This document shows positions 17,753-30,525 of a stretch of DNA of 33,752 nt, one piece after another. A model generated the notes under the pieces. That model worked only from the letters and a program-made list of their open reading frames with translations, was not told the DNA's origin and made no database searches. The first letter of the stretch is position 1, and every line of letters starts with the position of its first letter. A program made the position numbers and the translations under genes. This DNA is from a bacterium (lineage in GTDB: Bacteria; Patescibacteriota; Minisyncoccia; Phycocordibacterales; UBA9973), in NCBI GenBank assembly GCA_021831595.1, contig JAKBMK010000008.1, positions 1 through 33,752 on the forward strand, in the 5' to 3' direction.

Positions 17753-18145
17753 TTAAGCCACTAAACTTAATACCTTTGGTAAGAAGATTATAAGCCCTAC
17801 AATCCCAGCCACAATGACAGCAATAGCGACAGCCCCGGCAGCCACATCCTTGGTATCTCGAGCATATGGATGATATGTGGGACTAGTAAGATCTATATCT
17901 ATCTCAAAGGCTGTATTTAATGCTTCAGTAACAATTACAAGGCCAATAGAGAAAACAATCATAACCCATTCAATAGATGATATATGAAAAATAAAGCCCA
18001 AATATATAGCTAAAATTCCAAAGAAGATATGAAGCCAAGAATTGTGAGTGGTTCTTATAAATATTCCTAAGCCTCTCCATGCATGATTAGTGCTCTTGAG
18101 CCTCGTCACAATCGAAAACCTTTTCTTCTCATTAATTTTTTCCAT
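17753..18145 (-). CDS. DgkA-family lipid kinase (undecaprenol or diacylglycerol kinase)
   Basis: 130 aa integral membrane protein with three hydrophobic segments (about residues 40-54, 58-76 and 104-126). The family motif EALNTAFEIDID (about residues 74-85) and the following ARDTKDVAAGAV supply the catalytic Glu and the ATP-binding residues. In the Gram-positive and CPR-like branch such enzymes phosphorylate undecaprenol for wall synthesis; diacylglycerol is the alternative. It is inserted between the L2 and S19 blocks. A TATAAT box 6 nt before its ATG suggests a leaderless, separate transcript. No terminator is visible at its end, so read-through into S19 is possible. Confidence 0.85.
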   Translation of the reverse strand: MEKINEKKRFSIVTRLKSTNHAWRGLGIFIRTTHNSWLHIFFGILAIYLGFIFHISSIEWVMIVFSIGLVIVTEALNTAFEIDIDLTSPTYHPYARDTKDVAAGAVAIAVIVAGIVGLIIFLPKVLSLVA

Positions 18146-22340: not shown

Positions 22341-22370
22341 ATATATTATTGGTTAATAAACACCATAAAA

Positions 22371-22386
22371 TAAAGAAAAATCTTTA
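22371..22386. repeat. Small A/T hairpin in the tuf leader
   Basis: TAAAGA and TCTTTA flank AAAA, about 30 nt upstream of the tuf ATG. It is weak, and its role is unknown. Confidence 0.3.
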
Positions 22387-22430
22387 TAAAATAATACTTA
22401 CTAACATAATTATTTAATAATGTAAGCATC

Positions 22431-22458
22431 ATCATATCAGATATATAAATAAAGTCAA
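22431..22458 (-). promoter_or_regulatory. Promoter of tuf and the first ribosomal block
   Basis: TTGACT (22453-22458), a 16-nt spacer and TATGAT (22431-22436). Confidence 0.7.
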
Positions 22459-22572
22459 ATTATTGACAAAAATCACAATAGTAGTAGCTTAAAGATAAGA
22501 AACGCAACTAAATATAGTATAAATCTGAGCCAAAACTATATATTATTAGTTTGGTTCTTTAATAAATTAAGT

Positions 22573-22998
22573 ATGAAAATAGAAGAAATCAGAAAATTCC
22601 CTGCCCTAATGGGGGATAAATTGGTAACACAGGAAATAAGAACATTTGAGTTCATGTCGGAAAATTTAAAAACTGTTGAAACAAACTTGAACTCTTTTGT
22701 TCGAGCAGTTCAAAAAGATTGCCAACATGAATGGGAAGAAGAAAGAAGAGAAGACAGAAATATTGCTTCTTGCTTCAAAAGCGGTGGACATATTGGTTAT
22801 GGAATGAGCGTCCTTGATTCAAAAACCTGCAAGTTATGTGGGCTACACGAAAAAAGGCCTGCTGGAGCTCCGACCCAAGTCTGCCACAGCTGTTGGTCTC
22901 CGATGGAATACCATTCAACGATTCCAGGTCAAGGAGAAGGTACAATGGTTTACGAATGTAAAAATCCAAAGTGTAGCCATGGTAGCTGGCATACCTGA
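22573..22998 (+). CDS. Hypothetical zinc-ribbon protein
   Basis: 141 aa. I know no family for it. The N-terminal 48 residues look like a charged helix. Cys50/His52 are followed by three probable metal-binding pairs: Cys86-x2-Cys89 (CKLCG), Cys104-x2-Cys107 (CHSC) and Cys129-x4-Cys134 with His136 and His140. The last two pairs could build one zinc ribbon. No signal peptide is present, so it is presumably cytoplasmic. The leader holds a hairpin (CCAAAACTA/TAGTTTGG, about 22532-22555) and possible -10 boxes near 22513-22523. It ends in TGA, which shows the standard genetic code, and it has a terminator at 23019-23048. Confidence 0.8.
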   Translation: MKIEEIRKFPALMGDKLVTQEIRTFEFMSENLKTVETNLNSFVRAVQKDCQHEWEEERREDRNIASCFKSGGHIGYGMSVLDSKTCKLCGLHEKRPAGAPTQVCHSCWSPMEYHSTIPGQGEGTMVYECKNPKCSHGSWHT

Positions 22999-23018
22999 TT
23001 TTAATACAAACTAATTAT

Positions 23019-23048
23019 AAAAAGCGAGGCTTAGATGCCCCGCTTTTT
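23019..23048. terminator. Bidirectional terminator between convergent genes
   Basis: AAAAAGCG pairs with CGCTTTTT, and GGC/GCC lies further in. It serves both the zinc-ribbon gene (+) and the Cys-rich secreted gene (-). Confidence 0.85.
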
Positions 23049-23060
23049 ATTTTTCTCTAA

Positions 23061-25160
23061 TTAAAATTCCTCGTATGTAGGCTTAATTGCCCCTACATTT
23101 ATCAATATATCTATTGGAGCAGAGTCTGAATAGTCACCAGAACCTTTACAAACAAGAGTATATTTAGTTGTCTTGTTTGGTTTAACTGTAGTACTACCAC
23201 TTGAGGCAAAATTCTTTGTAGCCATAGTTGGATCAGAACTTGAAGTAATATTGCAGTAATCAGTATTTACTGAAGTCCAAGTTAATTTGATAGCTTCTCC
23301 AAATTCTATCTTTTTATTACCGCCAAAAACACTAAAAGTGGAAGGAGATAGGAGAAGTTCTTTTGTGATAAACGAGCCTTGAGTAGAATATCCAATACCA
23401 GAAATACTATTTATAGCATAGCCACGATAGTAATAAGTTGTTGTTGGACTCAAAATTTTTCCTAAACTTATAGTAAATGTACCTGTTGTTATGTTGCTAC
23501 CGTCTTTTGTACAAATAGCTCCGTTACTCGATGATGGATTTTGCATTGTTCCATAACAGACACCTCTTTCTGTGATAGAAGCTGGTGTTCCCAAAGAAAC
23601 AACTGTTGCTCCTAGTATTGCACTTTTATCTTTTACATTACTATCTGTAGGAGAAGAAACGATAGGAAGCTCTGGGTACACGCAGTTATCTCCAACGTAT
23701 GTAGAATTTGAGGTTGTTACTGGTGTACCAAAAATACACGATGGATAGCTCTCTTTTGTCTGACTTCTCGTTACAAGCCCTGAAATAGCAGAATAACCAG
23801 AAGCATTTGGGTCACAAGCTACTGTTACATTTTGAGTTAGAGGGTCTGCACACACGCGAGCACTAAAAGATGCAACAACAGTACAGCTAGAAGTAATAGG
23901 ATTTGTAGTATAAGTATTTCCCGACAGTGTTCCTCCACAAGTACCCCCTACAGAAGCATCATAATTTACACTTGGAATAACAGTGAATGAAAGAGTAGCA
24001 CCTTTAGCAACATTAGATTGTGCTACGTTTGGAGAAATTGTTCCGTTTGATCCAGCTGATGGGGTGACGGTATAAGTAGGATAAACGCAAGTATCCCCAA
24101 CATAAGTGGAATTAGATGTTGTTACAGGTAGTGCAGGGAAAGAACAACCTGGATAAGCTCCTTTATCTTGGCTTCGAGTTACCGTACCAGAAGATGCAGG
24201 ATATCCATATGGATTTGGGTCACAAGCAACTGTTACATTTTGAGTTAGAGGCGCAGAACAAAGGCAGGCCTCTGTATTACAACTTTGAGAATTTGAACCC
24301 ACACAGTCCGACCCACCACCTGATGGGGATGGATTCGTACAAGTACGAGTTTGAGTTCCTCCTCCACAAGTTGCACTACAAGCACTCCAAGCACTCCAGC
24401 CACCATTTACTACAGCTGGATATACACAATTGTCGCCAACATAAGTAGAGTTAGATGTTGTTACTGGTAATGGTGGAAATGAACACGACGGGTATGCAGA
24501 TTTTGTTTGGCTTCTCGTTACCAGTCCTGAAGTTGCTGCATAACCATATGCATTTAAGTCACAAGCTACTGTTACATTTTGAGTTAGAGGAGCAGAACAT
24601 AGACATGCTTGAGTGTTACAACTTGTACTTCCCCATTGAGTTGCGCCATTTGTATAAGGACAAGCTGTTCCTCCTCCCGAAGCGTTTCTTGTAATAGTAT
24701 ATGTTTGTTGTTCTACTCCACCTCCACAGCTTTTGCTACAAGTTCCATTGTCAGACCACGAACCAATACAAGATACTCCACAAGATTGAGTTGCGCCATT
24801 TGTGTAAGGACAAGCTGTTCCTCCTCCCGAAGCAGCAGTTGTTATTGAATATGTTTGAGATCCATTACTACAAGTTCCCCAAGAACCTACACAGTTTGTT
24901 CCACAAGATTGAGTTGCGCCATTTGTGTAAGGACAAGCTGTTCCTCCTCCCGAAGCAGCAGTTGTTATTGAATATGTTTGAGATCCATTACTACAAGTTC
25001 CCCAAGACCCTACACAATTAACTGCAGGCTCTGTAACAGTTACTGTAACGCTAGAAGAAGCTGAACTTGCCGATGCAAAACTAGCTCCAACAAGAAAAAT
25101 AGATACAATAAAAACTAATATAAAAACTTTCAGAAAACTTTTAAAAAATAAATTTTTCAT
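23061..25160 (-). CDS. Large secreted Cys-rich repeat protein with TSP1-like, InlB-like and FN3-like modules
   Basis: 699 aa. A signal peptide (about residues 1-31, ending ASFASA) is followed by [12 protein letters not shown]. Two near-identical 41-residue units with [20 protein letters not shown] lie at 48-88 and 89-129, then TSP type 1-like units ([15 protein letters not shown] near 134; [20 protein letters not shown] near 254). [16 protein letters not shown] module occurs three times (about 188, 301 and 437). An InlB B-repeat-like module (about 361-434), an FN3-like module with [10 protein letters not shown] (about 498-600) and an Ig-like end follow. There is no sorting signal. It is probably a cell-surface or host-contact protein (inference). 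Its promoter has an extended -10 at 25191-25220. Confidence 0.85.
24778..25023 (-). repeat. Two 123-bp tandem repeats inside the Cys-rich gene
   Basis: Copy 1 begins at 24778 and copy 2 at 24901. Apart from a few bases near their ends the two copies look identical, and each codes for one 41-residue unit. A related block occurs at about 24640-24690, and another in the second secreted gene at about 29660-29708. Confidence 0.85.
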
Positions 25161-25190
25161 TTTGTGTAGTTTTTAATGATATACGCTTTT

Positions 25191-25220
25191 ATTATATCAC
25201 AAAGAACAAAAAGCTATCAA
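25191..25220 (-). promoter_or_regulatory. Extended -10 promoter of the 699-aa secreted protein gene
   Basis: TTGATA (25215-25220), an 18-nt spacer ending in TGA, and TATAAT (25191-25196). The 16-nt string TTGTGATATAATAAAA also occurs before the Hint-domain gene. Confidence 0.65.
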
Positions 25221-25263
25221 TAAAATTTAGCAAATTGTTGTTTCTATTTATCTAATATCAGTG

Positions 25264-25269
25264 TATAAT
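25264..25269 (+). promoter_or_regulatory. Possible -10 box of the coiled-coil protein gene
   Basis: TATAAT lies 29 nt before the ATG at 25299. Upstream TTGTTT is 20 nt away, too far for a standard pair, so the call is tentative. Confidence 0.35.
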
Positions 25270-25298
25270 TAAGTATTATAACTAATACAACATTTTCT

Positions 25299-25934
25299 AT
25301 GATAAAAAACAAAATTATTTTAATATTAGGTGTTGGGTTAATGCTTTCCCCTGTCACATCTTGGGCAGCAGCAAAAAGTGTAACTCCAACAAAAATGGAC
25401 CCAAAGAATCTTGAGGTTCTAATGAAAAAAGATCCAGAAGCTTTGAAATTAAAAATACAGAAAGACATAAACGACAGACTTAAAAAAAGAATAGAGGAAA
25501 GATCCCTTCAAATAGCAGAAAAGGTAAGCAAAGATATTTCTTCGGTAAAAATAAAACCAGGTGCAGTAGCTCAAAAAAATCTAAAGACTACTATAGAAAA
25601 AATTTATGATGAAGTTGAAAATAAGTTTTCTAAATTATCTATAATTGATTCTAGATTATCTTTAAAAATAAATGCTTTTGAACAAGAAGGAAAGAATGTT
25701 GCTGAAATAAGAGATCAATACGATACAGCCAAAACAGCTCTTGGAAATGCCAGAATAGAAATTGACTCCACAAAAAATGTTGCTTTCACTCAAATCGGTA
25801 TTCAAACATCAAAAGAAGAATTAAGAAGCCTTGTTAAGATGGCGGAAGAAAAAATAAAACTAGCTGGGGAAGAATACAGAAAATTACTTCCAATGTTTGC
25901 AAAACTAGAAGGAGATAACAGTATTAAAAATTAA
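25299..25934 (+). CDS. Secreted or periplasmic coiled-coil protein, unknown function
   Basis: 211 aa. There is an N-terminal signal peptide (about residues 1-24, ending SWAAAKS), then a largely helical, Lys/Glu-rich body with heptad-like stretches (KIQKDINDRLKKRIEERSLQ; MAEEKIKLAGEEYRKLL). No catalytic motif is seen. It is followed after 18 nt by the single-span membrane protein gene, and the two share a terminator, so they probably act together at the cell envelope (inference). The pair lies in the gap between oppositely oriented secreted-protein genes. Confidence 0.75.
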   Translation: MIKNKIILILGVGLMLSPVTSWAAAKSVTPTKMDPKNLEVLMKKDPEALKLKIQKDINDRLKKRIEERSLQIAEKVSKDISSVKIKPGAVAQKNLKTTIEKIYDEVENKFSKLSIIDSRLSLKINAFEQEGKNVAEIRDQYDTAKTALGNARIEIDSTKNVAFTQIGIQTSKEELRSLVKMAEEKIKLAGEEYRKLLPMFAKLEGDNSIKN

Positions 25935-25952
25935 TATTTAATTCAATATTTT

Positions 25953-26234
25953 ATGGAACCAACAACACAACCAAATGTAGCAGAAACAACTCCTGTAACA
26001 CCTGTAACTCCACCAGTAGAAAAGAAGAATAAAAAAGTTTATATAATTATTCTTGCAGTTATAATAGTAATAGTTGTCACTATGATATTATTAAAGTCTA
26101 AAGTTCTAGCTCCTGTCGCAACAGAAATCCCTGTTGTTTTGTCTGCAGAGGATCAGAAAATAGACAACGAAATAGTTGAGACAATGAATCCTGTTAATGA
26201 AAATGATTTAAAGCAAATAGATAAAGAATTCTAA
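25953..26234 (+). CDS. Small single-span membrane protein, unknown function
   Basis: 93 aa. A Pro/Thr-rich N-terminal stretch (TTPVTPVTPPVEKKNKK) is followed by one long hydrophobic helix (about residues 29-47) and an acidic C-terminal part (SAEDQKIDNEIVETM). The positive residues just before the helix place the N-terminus in the cytoplasm and the acidic part outside. It is co-transcribed with the coiled-coil gene, and no family is recognised. Confidence 0.7.
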   Translation: MEPTTQPNVAETTPVTPVTPPVEKKNKKVYIIILAVIIVIVVTMILLKSKVLAPVATEIPVVLSAEDQKIDNEIVETMNPVNENDLKQIDKEF

Positions 26235-26244
26235 ATCTATAAAT

Positions 26245-26276
26245 AAAAATCCACCAATGACTATTGGTGGATTTTT
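26245..26276. terminator. Bidirectional terminator between convergent genes
   Basis: AAAAATCCACCAAT and ATTGGTGGATTTTT form a perfect 14-bp stem around GACT. Confidence 0.9.
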
Positions 26277-26287
26277 ATTATGTTGGA

Positions 26288-27409
26288 CTAATTAACAGGA
26301 GCCCCAGAACATGGTTGGTTCTCCACGCAATAAGTCTGATTATTAACACAGCTTGCTGAATAACCAGAAGGACAATATCCAGGACAAGGAGTACAAACTG
26401 GAGAAGCAGAAACCCAGTGACACCCATGGGTAAGCCAACCTTGGTCACAACTTGCTTGATCACTAAAATAACTACAAGACAAATTTTCATAAGGACCGGG
26501 TGTTTCTCCTCCAGGGCCAACACTTCCTGCAACTATACTATCAGGACTAACACCACAATGACCAGAACCAGCGAGACAAACTTGCCCACTTCCACAAGTG
26601 TACCCATCACCACACGCAGTCTTGTTGTGGACTAGATATCCATCTGCGTAATAAGTATGATCACCATCTAGTTTAAAGTTGTATAACTGTGTATCCTTCT
26701 TGCCTTCTTTGCTTTTTATACTCTTTAGTAATACATATCCATCTTCAGTAATTAGAGTATCTCCAACCTTGAGTGTTGTAATTTTAATTCCAAGGTTTTC
26801 TTTTTCTGTTTTCTTTGGATTTATAGCTTTCCAACCATTTGTCGTTTTAAATGGATGCTCTTCTGTGACAAAGTAACGTCCTCCGTTAAATGAGTAAAGT
26901 TTACCGTCTAATTCTGGCTGATGAAAACCAAGAACCTTATTATCTGTCTTTTCTCCTTTTAATACATCTCCTATTTTGACATCCTGTATTTTCTTACTAG
27001 TCCCATCAGACATCAGAATCATTGTGTCTGCTGTAAAACAAGAGATTAAGGCAGAGTAGTATGCATTACAAACAACAGGAGGATCAGCTTTGGTACAAGT
27101 AACAGTGAAAGTATGAGAACCTACCGACAGAGAACCTGTTCCGTATGAATCATTTGGTGCAAATCCACCAACTGTACCAATCAAACCATTGGGACCATAA
27201 AGGGTGCATGAGTCGGCATTAGAATTCCAAGAGATACTAGTTCCTGAATTTGGATAAGAAAGAGTAGGGTTGCCAGCTGAAATAGAAACATCAACTGAGA
27301 TAACAGCTTCAACCTTACCTTTTGGTTCACCTAACAACATTAAAACTACTCCCAAAATAGATATAAATAAAAATCCTACTAAAAATTCCTTACTAAATAT
27401 TTTTTTCAT
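26288..27409 (-). CDS. Secreted or anchored Cys-rich protein with an internal Hint (intein-like) domain
   Basis: 373 aa. A signal or anchor segment (about residues 8-27) is followed by an Ig-like part (SISWNSNADSCTLYG). A Hint domain runs from Cys124 to Asn262: block A CFTADTMILMSDGTSKKIQDVKIGDVL-like start (124-150), block B TEEH (182-185), and the end DGDHTYYADGYLVHN (248-262). The residue after Asn is Lys, not Cys, Ser or Thr, so full splicing would lack the usual +1 nucleophile; self-cleavage is more likely. After it come Cys-rich repeats (CGSGQVCLAGSGHCG, CTPCPGYCPSG). It probably releases or couples its N-terminal part outside the cell (inference). Confidence 0.85.
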   Translation of the reverse strand: MKKIFSKEFLVGFLFISILGVVLMLLGEPKGKVEAVISVDVSISAGNPTLSYPNSGTSISWNSNADSCTLYGPNGLIGTVGGFAPNDSYGTGSLSVGSHTFTVTCTKADPPVVCNAYYSALISCFTADTMILMSDGTSKKIQDVKIGDVLKGEKTDNKVLGFHQPELDGKLYSFNGGRYFVTEEHPFKTTNGWKAINPKKTEKENLGIKITTLKVGDTLITEDGYVLLKSIKSKEGKKDTQLYNFKLDGDHTYYADGYLVHNKTACGDGYTCGSGQVCLAGSGHCGVSPDSIVAGSVGPGGETPGPYENLSCSYFSDQASCDQGWLTHGCHWVSASPVCTPCPGYCPSGYSASCVNNQTYCVENQPCSGAPVN

Positions 27410-27448
27410 TTGATGATTCTTTAGAATTAAATTTATATTAATGTTTTT

Positions 27449-27457
27449 ATTATATCA
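27449..27457 (-). promoter_or_regulatory. Extended -10 promoter of the Hint-domain gene
   Basis: TGATATAAT within TTGTGATATAATAAAA, the same string as before the 699-aa secreted protein gene. The -35 region is unclear. The leader is about 35 nt. Confidence 0.55.
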
Positions 27458-27465
27458 CAACTATC

Positions 27466-27504
27466 AAAAAAGCCACCCCCTTTTGCAAGAAGAGTGGACT
27501 TTTT
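27466..27504. terminator. Terminator of the FN3 lipoprotein gene
   Basis: On the minus strand AAAAAG(T)CCAC pairs with GTGGCTTTTTT with one bulged base, 13 nt past the stop at 27517. Confidence 0.7.
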
Positions 27505-27516
27505 CAAATATTTAAA

Positions 27517-28554
27517 TTACTTATAAGACCTCGTTGGTTCAAAAAGGTATTGAGCCTCATAATCATTCTCGGGAATGCGTTTTCCATTAAAATCAATGTA
27601 CTCAATCAATTCCCTTAGAATTAGGCTCTGAGGATCAAGATGAATTATCTTCATTCTATGCCCCATAGAACCATCTGGTTTCGTTCCAAAGATGAGAGAA
27701 TCACCCTTTAGGGTACACAGGTGTTCATAAACAATACCTCCTTTATCTGGCCAGCTGGTCTTGATTTTAAAATCATTCCCCGATTGATAAAATTCATATT
27801 TATTAATTAGAATTCCATCCGAAGGATAAATGTCAGTCCAACCAGTAGTATTCACATATCGATCCTGCTCTTTGACCGTATACCAAGGGTGCTGACTCAA
27901 AATCCATTTGGGGTCTGGTTTGAAAGTGACATAAACATCGGGTAAATTTTTAGACACCATTATAGTGTAAGAAATTGCTCCATCTAAAAGGAAGCTTTTT
28001 CCGTCCACTCGTATTGAGTCTGTCATATAGCCGACATTTGGGGTTGCTTTGACGTCAATAGACATCCCACTAGCAACTTCTTTAGGCGCAGTAGCAGTAC
28101 CATTTGGCCCTGCAGTAACTGTTATGCTGTACATAATAGGAGCAGTGATAAAAGAAACGTCATTCCCATAAAATGTGCCTAAACTGGTTACAGCATAAGC
28201 CCTTGCATGGTAAGAAGTTCCAGGAATCAGTCCGGATAATGTGCTGGAAAAGATTCCAGTACCAGACCCGTTAGCTAATTTATTATCACTTATTGAAGGA
28301 TTATTGGTTAACCCCCAGCATATACCCCTATCGGTAACCTTAGCACCTCCATCGCTGGAGATATTTCCTCCGGTTACAACAGTTGTCATGGTGACAGCTG
28401 TAGCTTCCGTCGTAGAAATTACAGGGGAAGTCACCACCGGTTCCGGCAGTATATCCTTCCCACAAGATGTAAGCACTATCATGATCACAACCAAAATAAT
28501 GCCCATCATTCCAACACCAGCAAACTTTGCTGAAGACGAATAAGAATTTTTCAT
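27517..28554 (-). CDS. FN3-domain lipoprotein with Bacteroidetes-like features
   Basis: 345 aa from the ATG at 28554. The N-terminus is a lipoprotein signal (hydrophobic to IVLTSC, lipobox Cys near residue 31). Next comes an FN3-like module (TEATAVTMTTVVTGGNISSDGG, DRGICWG, GLIPGTSYHARAYAVTSLGT) and an InlB-like GPNGTATAPKEVASG module. The C-terminal half looks like the lipocalin-like domains of Bacteroidetes lipoproteins. The upstream ATG at 28599 abuts the -10 box (28600-28605) and cannot be used. The architecture is much commoner in Bacteroidetes, which suggests transfer (inference). Own promoter and terminator. Confidence 0.75.
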   Translation of the reverse strand: MKNSYSSSAKFAGVGMMGIILVVIMIVLTSCGKDILPEPVVTSPVISTTEATAVTMTTVVTGGNISSDGGAKVTDRGICWGLTNNPSISDNKLANGSGTGIFSSTLSGLIPGTSYHARAYAVTSLGTFYGNDVSFITAPIMYSITVTAGPNGTATAPKEVASGMSIDVKATPNVGYMTDSIRVDGKSFLLDGAISYTIMVSKNLPDVYVTFKPDPKWILSQHPWYTVKEQDRYVNTTGWTDIYPSDGILINKYEFYQSGNDFKIKTSWPDKGGIVYEHLCTLKGDSLIFGTKPDGSMGHRMKIIHLDPQSLILRELIEYIDFNGKRIPENDYEAQYLFEPTRSYK

Positions 28555-28599
28555 GGCTCTATAATTTTTTAGGATCAATTTTTTATTTAGTTTACCCAT

Positions 28600-28628
28600 A
28601 TTATCTAACTTTTTATCTATTTTGTCAA
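28600..28628 (-). promoter_or_regulatory. Promoter of the FN3 lipoprotein gene
   Basis: TTGACA (28623-28628), a 17-nt spacer and GATAAT (28600-28605). It has the sigma70 form, not the Bacteroidetes TTTG/TAnnTTTG form. Confidence 0.65.
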
Positions 28629-28646
28629 TACCCTGGCAAAATCAAT

Positions 28647-28679
28647 GAATCCCCCGCCAACTTGGTTGGCGGGGGATTC
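28647..28679 (-). terminator. Strong hairpin terminator after the 516-aa secreted protein gene
   Basis: A perfect 15-bp stem, GC-rich in the middle (28647-28661 with 28665-28679), with a 3-nt loop. The following T tract is interrupted (ATTGATTTTG). Confidence 0.7.
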
Positions 28680-28687
28680 TATTTTGA

Positions 28688-30238
28688 TTATTGCTCAATG
28701 ACATTAGTATTTATTGGATCAACTAACACATTTTTGACTCCTGAAATAGATATGCCATATCCTCCATTACATACTATAGTATATTTAGTATCTTTCTTTA
28801 GAGATGGGGTCTGATATATATAGCTTGTTCCGTTCCCACAGCTTCCAGGATTAGCACCTGTCTTTATATCATAATAAGAACAGGAACAATCAGATGCCTT
28901 TGTGGCGGTCCAACCTACTTTAACTCTTCCGTTATAAGGAATTCTTACTGTGACAGGAAGCCCGTCTCTTGTGACTGAAACATCAACGATTGGACAATCA
29001 GCCGGATCTACAGTTCTTGTTTGTATAGGATTTGAAAGTCCAGCAGGATCATCTACACCACCATTTGTAGCTTTTGTATAAGTTTTCGTCTGTGTAACAG
29101 GAGCCCCGGGACAAACAGATAATGAGGGACTCCAGTCTGACCAGAAACCTGCTGTTGGAGAAAATGTGTCACATGTTGGTGGATTTGTTGCTCCGTTTAC
29201 ACATACGGTTCCACCACCAGTTGTTGTACAAACAGGAGGGTTGGTGGCACCATTTAAACATATAGTTCCACCACCTGTTGTTGTACATACAGGATAGTTG
29301 TCTGCTCCATTAGAACAAGAAGGTGGAGGAGTTGAGGTAACACACTTTGCCCCATCCCAAGTTGTTCCTGAAACACAAGATGCGGTAGCAGAATCAGAAC
29401 CAAGAAGAACTCCGTTGTTGTACAAGAAGAAACTTCTTGAGCCGTAACTTACAGTATATGAAGCAGAACTATTATTACCAGAACCAACAGTTATGTTAGT
29501 AGGTGTCGTAACCGCTGATGTTGATACAGGATTTGTGGTAGACCAAGAAATAGATGAGCTACAAGAACTTCCACCTGAAGCGATAGTACAGTTGTTTGCT
29601 GTTATGGTTCCAGACATAACATCACAGGCAGCGGTACTACAACTTGTAGTACCCCATCTAGTTGCTCCATTTGCATAAGGACAAGCTGTTCCTCCTCCTG
29701 AAGCGGCAGTTTTAATAGTATATATTTGCTGTTTTACTCCGGTTGAGCCACAAGCTGTGACACTACAAGTATTGGTGTCGCTCCAAGAGCTGACACAATC
29801 TACTACAGGAATGGCCTTAGCTTCTGTACAAGCAGTTGCAGAAGTACTGGTTCCACCGTTTGAACCATTACAACCCCAAGTCCAACCAGAAGCATTTTCA
29901 ACATTACTTACTGAAGTACCAGATGTACATATATAGTGAGAGGTAGAACAAGCTCCGTTTATTGGTTTAGCTTCAGTACAAGAAGTTGCAGAAGTACTGG
30001 TTCCACCGTTTGAACCGTTACATCCCCATGTCCAAGCTGTTGCACCGTCTACATTGCTTACAGAAGTACCAGATGTACATATATAGTGAGAGGTAGAACA
30101 AGCTCCGTTTACAGGAGGTGCTGTGACTGTAACCGTCACGCTGTCAGAAGCACTGCCAGCATATGCTTGATTCGAGATAAACCCAAAAGATAAAATTAGT
30201 AGAGTAGTAAACAAAAATATTTTTGTAAATTTAATCAT
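28688..30238 (-). CDS. Secreted Cys-rich repeat protein, paralogue of the 699-aa protein
   Basis: 516 aa. A signal peptide (about residues 1-28, ending QAYAGS) leads into SDSVTVTVTAPPVN, nearly the same junction as in the 699-aa protein. Two copies of a NGACSTSHYICTSGTSVSNV unit (about 48 and 94) are followed by a WSDTNTCSVTACGSTGVKQQ TSP1-like unit with the GGGTACPY segment shared with the other protein. After this come an Ig-like part, three short NGATNPPVCTTTGGGT-type repeats, WSDWSPSLSVCPG and a final Ig-like domain. It is probably exported and disulphide-rich. Its promoter has an extended -10 at 30298-30306. Confidence 0.85.
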   Translation of the reverse strand: MIKFTKIFLFTTLLILSFGFISNQAYAGSASDSVTVTVTAPPVNGACSTSHYICTSGTSVSNVDGATAWTWGCNGSNGGTSTSATSCTEAKPINGACSTSHYICTSGTSVSNVENASGWTWGCNGSNGGTSTSATACTEAKAIPVVDCVSSWSDTNTCSVTACGSTGVKQQIYTIKTAASGGGTACPYANGATRWGTTSCSTAACDVMSGTITANNCTIASGGSSCSSSISWSTTNPVSTSAVTTPTNITVGSGNNSSASYTVSYGSRSFFLYNNGVLLGSDSATASCVSGTTWDGAKCVTSTPPPSCSNGADNYPVCTTTGGGTICLNGATNPPVCTTTGGGTVCVNGATNPPTCDTFSPTAGFWSDWSPSLSVCPGAPVTQTKTYTKATNGGVDDPAGLSNPIQTRTVDPADCPIVDVSVTRDGLPVTVRIPYNGRVKVGWTATKASDCSCSYYDIKTGANPGSCGNGTSYIYQTPSLKKDTKYTIVCNGGYGISISGVKNVLVDPINTNVIEQ

Positions 30239-30297
30239 ATTGATAAAATTAATTAGTAAAAAAACAAATAAGAAACTTTTTATTTTAAGTAATATAA

Positions 30298-30306
30298 ATT
30301 ATACCA
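30298..30306 (-). promoter_or_regulatory. Extended -10 promoter of the 516-aa secreted protein gene
   Basis: TGGTATAAT, i.e. TATAAT with the TGn extension, about 60 nt before the ATG. Confidence 0.5.
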
Positions 30307-30372
30307 CTAAATTTTTAAAAATGAAATGAAATCTATGAAATTAGCACTGAAATAAAACATCTGGCTCAATTA

Positions 30373-30401
30373 TTGACTAATCAAAAGTATTGGGGTAACA
30401 T
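30373..30401 (+). promoter_or_regulatory. Promoter of nusA
   Basis: TTGACT (30373-30378), a 17-nt spacer and TAACAT (30396-30401), predicting a leader of roughly 118 nt. Confidence 0.5.
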
Positions 30402-30411
30402 TATGTTTAGT

Positions 30412-30497
30412 AAGTCCGTCCTCGAACCGGGCTTTTATTTTACTAAAAATACGTAATAATTACATGTTTTTAGTAAAAATCTGCTTTATCAGCAGAT
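30412..30497 (+). promoter_or_regulatory. Three consecutive hairpins in the nusA leader
   Basis: First, AAGTCCG (30412-30418) pairs with CGGGCTT (30428-30434) and is followed by TTATTTT, a terminator-like form. Second, a near-palindrome lies at 30441-30475, with TACTAAAAA/TTTTTAGTA outside and GTAAT/ATTAC inside. Third, ATCTGCT (30479-30485) pairs with AGCAGAT (30491-30497). They may form a leader control region for the termination factor NusA. From 30242 to 30372 I see nothing but the divergent promoter. Confidence 0.45.
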
Positions 30498-30525
30498 AAA
30501 TTACAATTAAATAACAATTAAATAT

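Follow-up and report, generated by a model that had tools for sequence, protein, structure and literature searches.

A candidate exported type A BIL domain with lysine after its terminal asparagine, and the recurrence of this lysine among its relatives

What might a Hint domain accomplish in an exported bacterial protein when it carries the expected residues up to and including the terminal asparagine and is then followed by lysine? The question is raised by a 373-residue protein encoded on the minus strand of the 33,752-nucleotide stretch of DNA analysed here (the window). The landmarks named in the initial annotation, i.e. Cys124, TEEH and His-Asn followed by Lys263, are all present in the open reading frame, and its description as secreted and Cys-rich likewise holds, since export is predicted from a hydrophobic helix at residues 8-24 of the predicted structure and the protein contains 17 cysteines.

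An exported protein in a variable interval

The features of the gene and its product are as follows.

26288..27409, minus strand: coding sequence of the 373-residue predicted exported Hint protein (open reading frame; homologues in three congeneric genomes)
27305..27409, minus strand: predicted N-terminal export signal or membrane anchor, residues 1-35 (sequence; predicted helix 8-24)
27041..27304, minus strand: N-terminal flank, residues 36-123 (beta-rich in a model of moderate confidence; 27-49% identity between congeners)
26624..27040, minus strand: Hint domain, very probably of BIL type A, Cys124-Asn262 (profiles, PDB sequence search and predicted structure)
27038..27040, minus strand: Cys124, block A nucleophile (invariant in alignments A1 and A4)
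26855..26866, minus strand: block B, T182-E-E-H185 (in A1 and A4 the histidine is invariant and the threonine nearly so)
26624..26629, minus strand: His261-Asn262, block G (invariant in A1 and A4)
26621..26623, minus strand: Lys263, the +1 residue and putative acyl acceptor (+1 statistics among relatives)
26291..26620, minus strand: C-terminal Cys-rich tail, residues 264-373 (matches no described family; modelled with low confidence; present once in the genome)

The tail matches no known Pfam family, toxin families included, and is of low confidence in the full-length model, from which no fold was assigned to it. Pfam likewise revealed no conserved host domain flanking the Hint, and the host genome (807 kb in 33 contigs) contains no second Hint domain, and the tail has no second, Hint-free copy there. 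In the family-level orthologues (L002-L007; region 26619-26621 in the window) the tail starts HNK-x-x-Cys, with cysteine at +4 in nearly all, and judging from the sequences this residue may form a disulfide or serve as a second thiol acceptor.

The gene is located between tuf and nusA, in an interval (22341-30525) whose content differs among the readable congeners: the proteins encoded there are exported and often Cys-rich or lipoprotein-like, and in some congeners the interval also contains transposase-like frames. A Hint gene is found near nusA in the host genome, in the congeners G001, G008 and G023, and furthermore in G029 and G047, both from a different genus of this family. The proposed adjacency to repeat-rich surface proteins is borne out, since the neighbours are exported and repeat-rich, with one TSP1-type match above the Pfam cut-off, one weaker TSP1 match and one InlB B-repeat match. 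The interval is thus a variable island of surface proteins, which by itself does not link the Hint to its neighbours, and the maturation or anchoring of these by the Hint, put forward in the initial annotation, is at most a possibility. A role as sortase partner or anti-sortase was rejected, no sortase family being found in the host genome, and a defence-system protein was likewise rejected, no PADLOC family being matched. Elsewhere in the window, a frame at 17753-18145, between rpsS and rplB in the ribosomal protein operon, presumably encodes a diacylglycerol-kinase-like membrane protein.

Assignment of the Hint domain

When searched as a single sequence, the protein matches the Pfam models Hom_end_hint (1.1e-5), PT-HINT (1.2e-4), Vint (1.6e-4) and Hint (0.007), all under the curated cut-offs, and the NCBIfam models TIGR01445 and TIGR01443 match below threshold as well; the profile search suggested in the initial annotation hence returns several Hint and intein models, every one of them sub-threshold. 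In a sequence search of the PDB, residues 124-262 were matched by 6tmm/6y75 at 1.4e-5, and 2lwy followed at 1.5e-4. The absence of a Hint fold from structure prediction had been named as the outcome that would speak against the assignment, and a confident Hint fold was obtained: the AlphaFold2 model of residues 104-282, built from an alignment of 102 sequences (the query and fetched relatives), has a mean pLDDT of 86, with a core above 90, and a pTM of 0.80. With this model Foldseek places the Tetrahymena BIL2 structure 6y75 at the top (1.8e-11), followed by the C. thermocellum BIL (6.9e-9) and the gp41-1 intein (7e-9), with Hedgehog 1at0 lower down (4.6e-5), and the Z scores from VIA-align fall in the same order, being 19.8 for 6y75, 16.8 for both 2lwy and 6riz, and 14.5 for 1at0.

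Matches to the domain are present in five other genomes of the genus, one of them partial. In three congeneric genomes the Hint is 76% identical, against 27-49% for the N-terminal flank and 45-54% for the tail, with a dN of about 0.15 and a dS near or at saturation. The Hint is accordingly the constrained part of the protein, under purifying selection, while the flanks vary, and this combination fits BIL domains, for which variable host regions are typical according to a review (PMC7765530). Taken together with the predicted fold, the 76% identity and low dN exclude a chance profile match. The cysteine, the block B histidine and the His-Asn pair are furthermore invariant across the close relatives, and in a wider set the first cysteine is kept in 167 of 172 sequences and His-Asn in 169 of 172.

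The domain displays the features of a type A BIL: a Hint fold, an N-terminal cysteine, threonine and histidine in block B (T182 and H185), a His-Asn end, no Cys, Ser or Thr at +1, and a variable host protein. We are therefore confident that Cys124-Asn262 is a type A BIL domain, and by analogy with its relatives it is likely to be active in autoprocessing. A class 1 intein is rejected on account of Lys263, and a type B BIL because that type is defined as being without an intein-like block G, which is present here. The initial annotation had left the choice between a BIL-type and a Hedgehog-type module; the former stands, lacking as it does the intein +1 nucleophile, whereas the latter is disfavoured by the retained His-Asn block and by the Z scores (19.8 against 14.5).

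Of the known systems, BIL2 of Tetrahymena thermophila (BUBL1 locus, 6tmm/6y75) is the best match both by sequence (1.4e-5) and by fold (26% identity at the Z of 19.8) and shares the first cysteine, the block B histidine and His-Asn, but it is eukaryotic, lies between ubiquitin-like domains and is under zinc control, whereas the present domain sits in an exported bacterial protein. It is reported to carry out an ATP-free joining of protein to a lysine amine (PMC8616854); the acceptor lysine is described as lying within the ubiquitin-like domain downstream, while here the lysine is exactly at +1. The C. thermocellum type A BIL (2lwy) resembles our domain in fold (Z 16.8), in its His-Asn end and in the absence of Cys, Ser and Thr from +1, where its native residue is alanine; to our knowledge no conserved lysine has been described for it. 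Class 1 mini-inteins (gp41-1, 6qaz, 6riz) share the fold (Z 16.8), the first cysteine, the histidine and His-Asn, but they have Cys, Ser or Thr at +1 and conserved host sites. The C-terminal domain of Hedgehog (1at0) has the fold (Z 14.5) and the residue for the N-S acyl shift, but lacks the block G reaction and ends in a sterol-recognition part, where the present protein has a Cys-rich tail of unassigned family.

The Pfam AXH model (the ataxin-1 module) also matches Hint domains, strongly at L069:4954-6465:+ (E 1.9e-20) and in other Bacteroidota loci and weakly in 71 of 102 relatives, which may reflect a common subdomain or a contaminated model.

Lysine after the terminal asparagine

Relatives were collected from genomes and viral contigs, their His-Asn ends located and the set dereplicated at 60% identity, which left 169 Asn-ending domains from more than 15 phyla and from phages, 13 of them in macroglobulin-like proteins and 156 in others. 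The +1 residue is lysine in 87 of the 169, all 87 being among the 156, where arginine accounts for 10 and Cys, Ser or Thr for 19, so that about 44% of these non-macroglobulin relatives have a residue other than lysine; at +3 to +6 of the same relatives lysine reaches only 2-7%. In the macroglobulin-like members +1 is Asp or Glu, with lysine at +2 in 11 of 13. The earlier reading of Lys263 as a missing intein nucleophile is thus only partly upheld, since Cys, Ser and Thr are indeed lacking at this position but lysine, being the commonest +1 residue in the wider family, does not represent mere absence.

Neither composition nor search design explains this excess. In loci above 50% G+C lysine still dominates, occupying +1 in 10 of 16 at a background of 2.9% and leading arginine by 10 to 1, which argues against A+T-rich codon bias; overall the lysine to arginine ratio at +1 is 87:10, against an ORF background of about 1.8:1 where G+C is low and of less than 1 where it is high. 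Query bias is rejected likewise, since the excess recurs in an independent scan whose query ended at the asparagine and whose search patterns lay in the N-terminal half (lysine in 25 of 37, arginine in 6 of 37, and Cys, Ser or Thr in none). Nor is the lysine the heritage of one clade, given its occurrence in more than 15 phyla and at least 33 state changes on a tree of 165 domains. The syntenic Hint of the congener G023 has valine at +1.

To which part does the lysine belong, the Hint or its host? Among proteins that stop at +1 the final residue is lysine in 10 of 11, and none stops at the asparagine itself. Among phage tail proteins, those homologues from cultured phages that have no Hint (L363-L366) carry Trp, Tyr or Pro before a conserved DPLAQ motif, whereas the Hint-bearing homologues have His-Asn and then Lys or Arg at the same site; inheritance of the lysine from the host protein is in this case rejected, the Hint-free homologues being without it there. 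Finally, 39 of 86 Hint-Hint junctions consist of a single K (19) or of KG (20), and L338 and L341 each join four Hints by single-lysine linkers. From these three observations the sequences suggest that the +1 lysine is part of the Hint module. Searches of the open-access literature on Hint domains and inteins in the Candidate Phyla Radiation and on intein-like isopeptide bonds found no earlier report of a Lys+1 family, and the recurrent lysine is described, without a claim to priority, as a variant feature relative to known type A BILs.

Some arrangements of the relatives deserve mention in their own right. In structural proteins of phage tails as many as four Hints stand in tandem, with single lysines between them, just before the conserved DPLAQTF (L338, aa 1000-1636; L341, aa 1000-1627; also L327, L343 and L121), and the Hint-free homologues of these tandem-Hint proteins occur in cultured marine phages. 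Cellular tandem Hints joined by KG are found in L080, L084, L085, L099, L103 and L108, which derive from Elusimicrobia, Omnitrophota-like, Deltaproteobacteria and Lentisphaerae bins. In patescibacterial alpha-2-macroglobulin-like proteins (L190-L201 and L217-L238, e.g. L226:1-3387:+ and L192:1-3387:-) a Hint occupies the slot of the bait region, between A2M_BRD, ending at about aa 458-462, and A2M, starting at about aa 642, with the Asp/Glu at +1 and Lys at +2 noted above. We know of no self-cleaving bait region.

Possible reactions and their meaning

Type A BILs have been reviewed as forming an N-terminal thioester, with C-terminal cleavage by cyclisation of the asparagine and ligation through the freed amine (PMC4031507), and for Tetrahymena BIL2 splicing is reported to proceed by way of an isopeptide bond formed on the side chain of a lysine (PMC8616854). 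By analogy with these relatives, Cys124 would undergo an N-S acyl shift, with Thr182 and His185 assisting, that turns the link to the N-terminal part into a thioester, and Asn262 would cyclise with the aid of His261 and thereby cut the chain before Lys263. The thioester might then be taken by an amine or by water, preferably by an amine of Lys263, which by virtue of its position would offer two: the alpha-amine, giving an ordinary peptide bond as in the published type A route, and the side chain, giving an isopeptide bond. The N-terminal part would accordingly either be freed or end up linked, via Lys263, to the Cys-rich tail. For this proposal as a whole, an exported type A BIL with a Cys124 thioester, Asn262 cyclisation and Lys263 as preferred acceptor, we consider the balance to be slightly favourable. 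The preference for Lys263, suggested by the two published routes, is when taken separately a tentative idea, and use of its side chain is rather unlikely. Speaking against Lys263 as acceptor are the relatives with arginine, which cannot take up an acyl group as lysine does, the valine of G023, and the fact that in about 44% of the non-macroglobulin relatives +1 is not lysine.

These same observations are better accounted for by the main rival, namely a plain type A BIL that cuts at one or both ends and frees the N-terminal part or the tail, with Lys263 not an acceptor but a residue whose charge or shape aids Asn cyclisation or which keeps the junction flexible and exposed. This reading is favoured by arginine, which ranks after lysine among the basic residues at +1 (10 of 156, with 6 of 37 in the independent scan), and by the macroglobulin-type members, in which an acidic +1 residue precedes the lysine; published BILs, moreover, yield mainly cleavage products (PMC4031507, PMC7664689). 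The predominance of lysine over arginine (87 against 10), far above background also in G+C-rich loci, is however in poor agreement with a plain BIL, which we regard as doubtful, albeit worth serious consideration.

The other readings are far less probable. A pre-toxin Hint, freeing the tail of a polymorphic toxin by self-cleavage, is hinted at by the weak PT-HINT match (22.8 against a cut-off of 27.7 bits), a model that 90 of 102 relatives match at 0.01, but the Cys-rich tail matches no toxin family, although an undescribed toxin is conceivable, the adjacent gene past the tail is transcribed convergently, with no immunity-like partner in the same orientation, and 40 dereplicated non-macroglobulin relatives end at most six residues past the asparagine and thus have no toxin; we deem it very improbable. 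The same applies to a decayed intein or dead Hint retained as a structural domain, a notion that stems from the lack of both a +1 Cys, Ser or Thr and a homing endonuclease and is opposed by the invariant catalytic residues and by the Hint being the best-conserved stretch of the protein, kept so by purifying selection. Most improbable of all is a Hedgehog-like reaction, in which an N-terminal thioester alone would place a small nucleophile such as a sterol, sugar or cell-wall amine on the N-terminal part. Several relatives do end a few residues past the Hint, as such a layout would have it, yet even these keep His-Asn and the residue that follows, none ending at the asparagine, and an N-terminal-only reaction would need neither; the fold match to 1at0 is also the weaker one.

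Returning to lysine as acceptor, BIL domains are usually viewed as inteins that have lost the +1 nucleophile. The strong, module-linked preference for Lys+1, which extends over bacteria, archaea and phages, points rather to many BILs having an acceptor of their own. That the lysine side chain replaces the Cys, Ser or Thr of inteins, and that Hint domains splicing via an isopeptide bond form a class widespread in prokaryotes and phages, is a still less likely extension; if true, the K- and KG-linked Hint arrays would give rise, on surface and tail proteins, to short chains branched at lysine. Should the lysine take the acyl group, this would amount to ATP-free and sortase-free joining of proteins in bacteria and phages, comparable to what has been reported for Tetrahymena BIL2.
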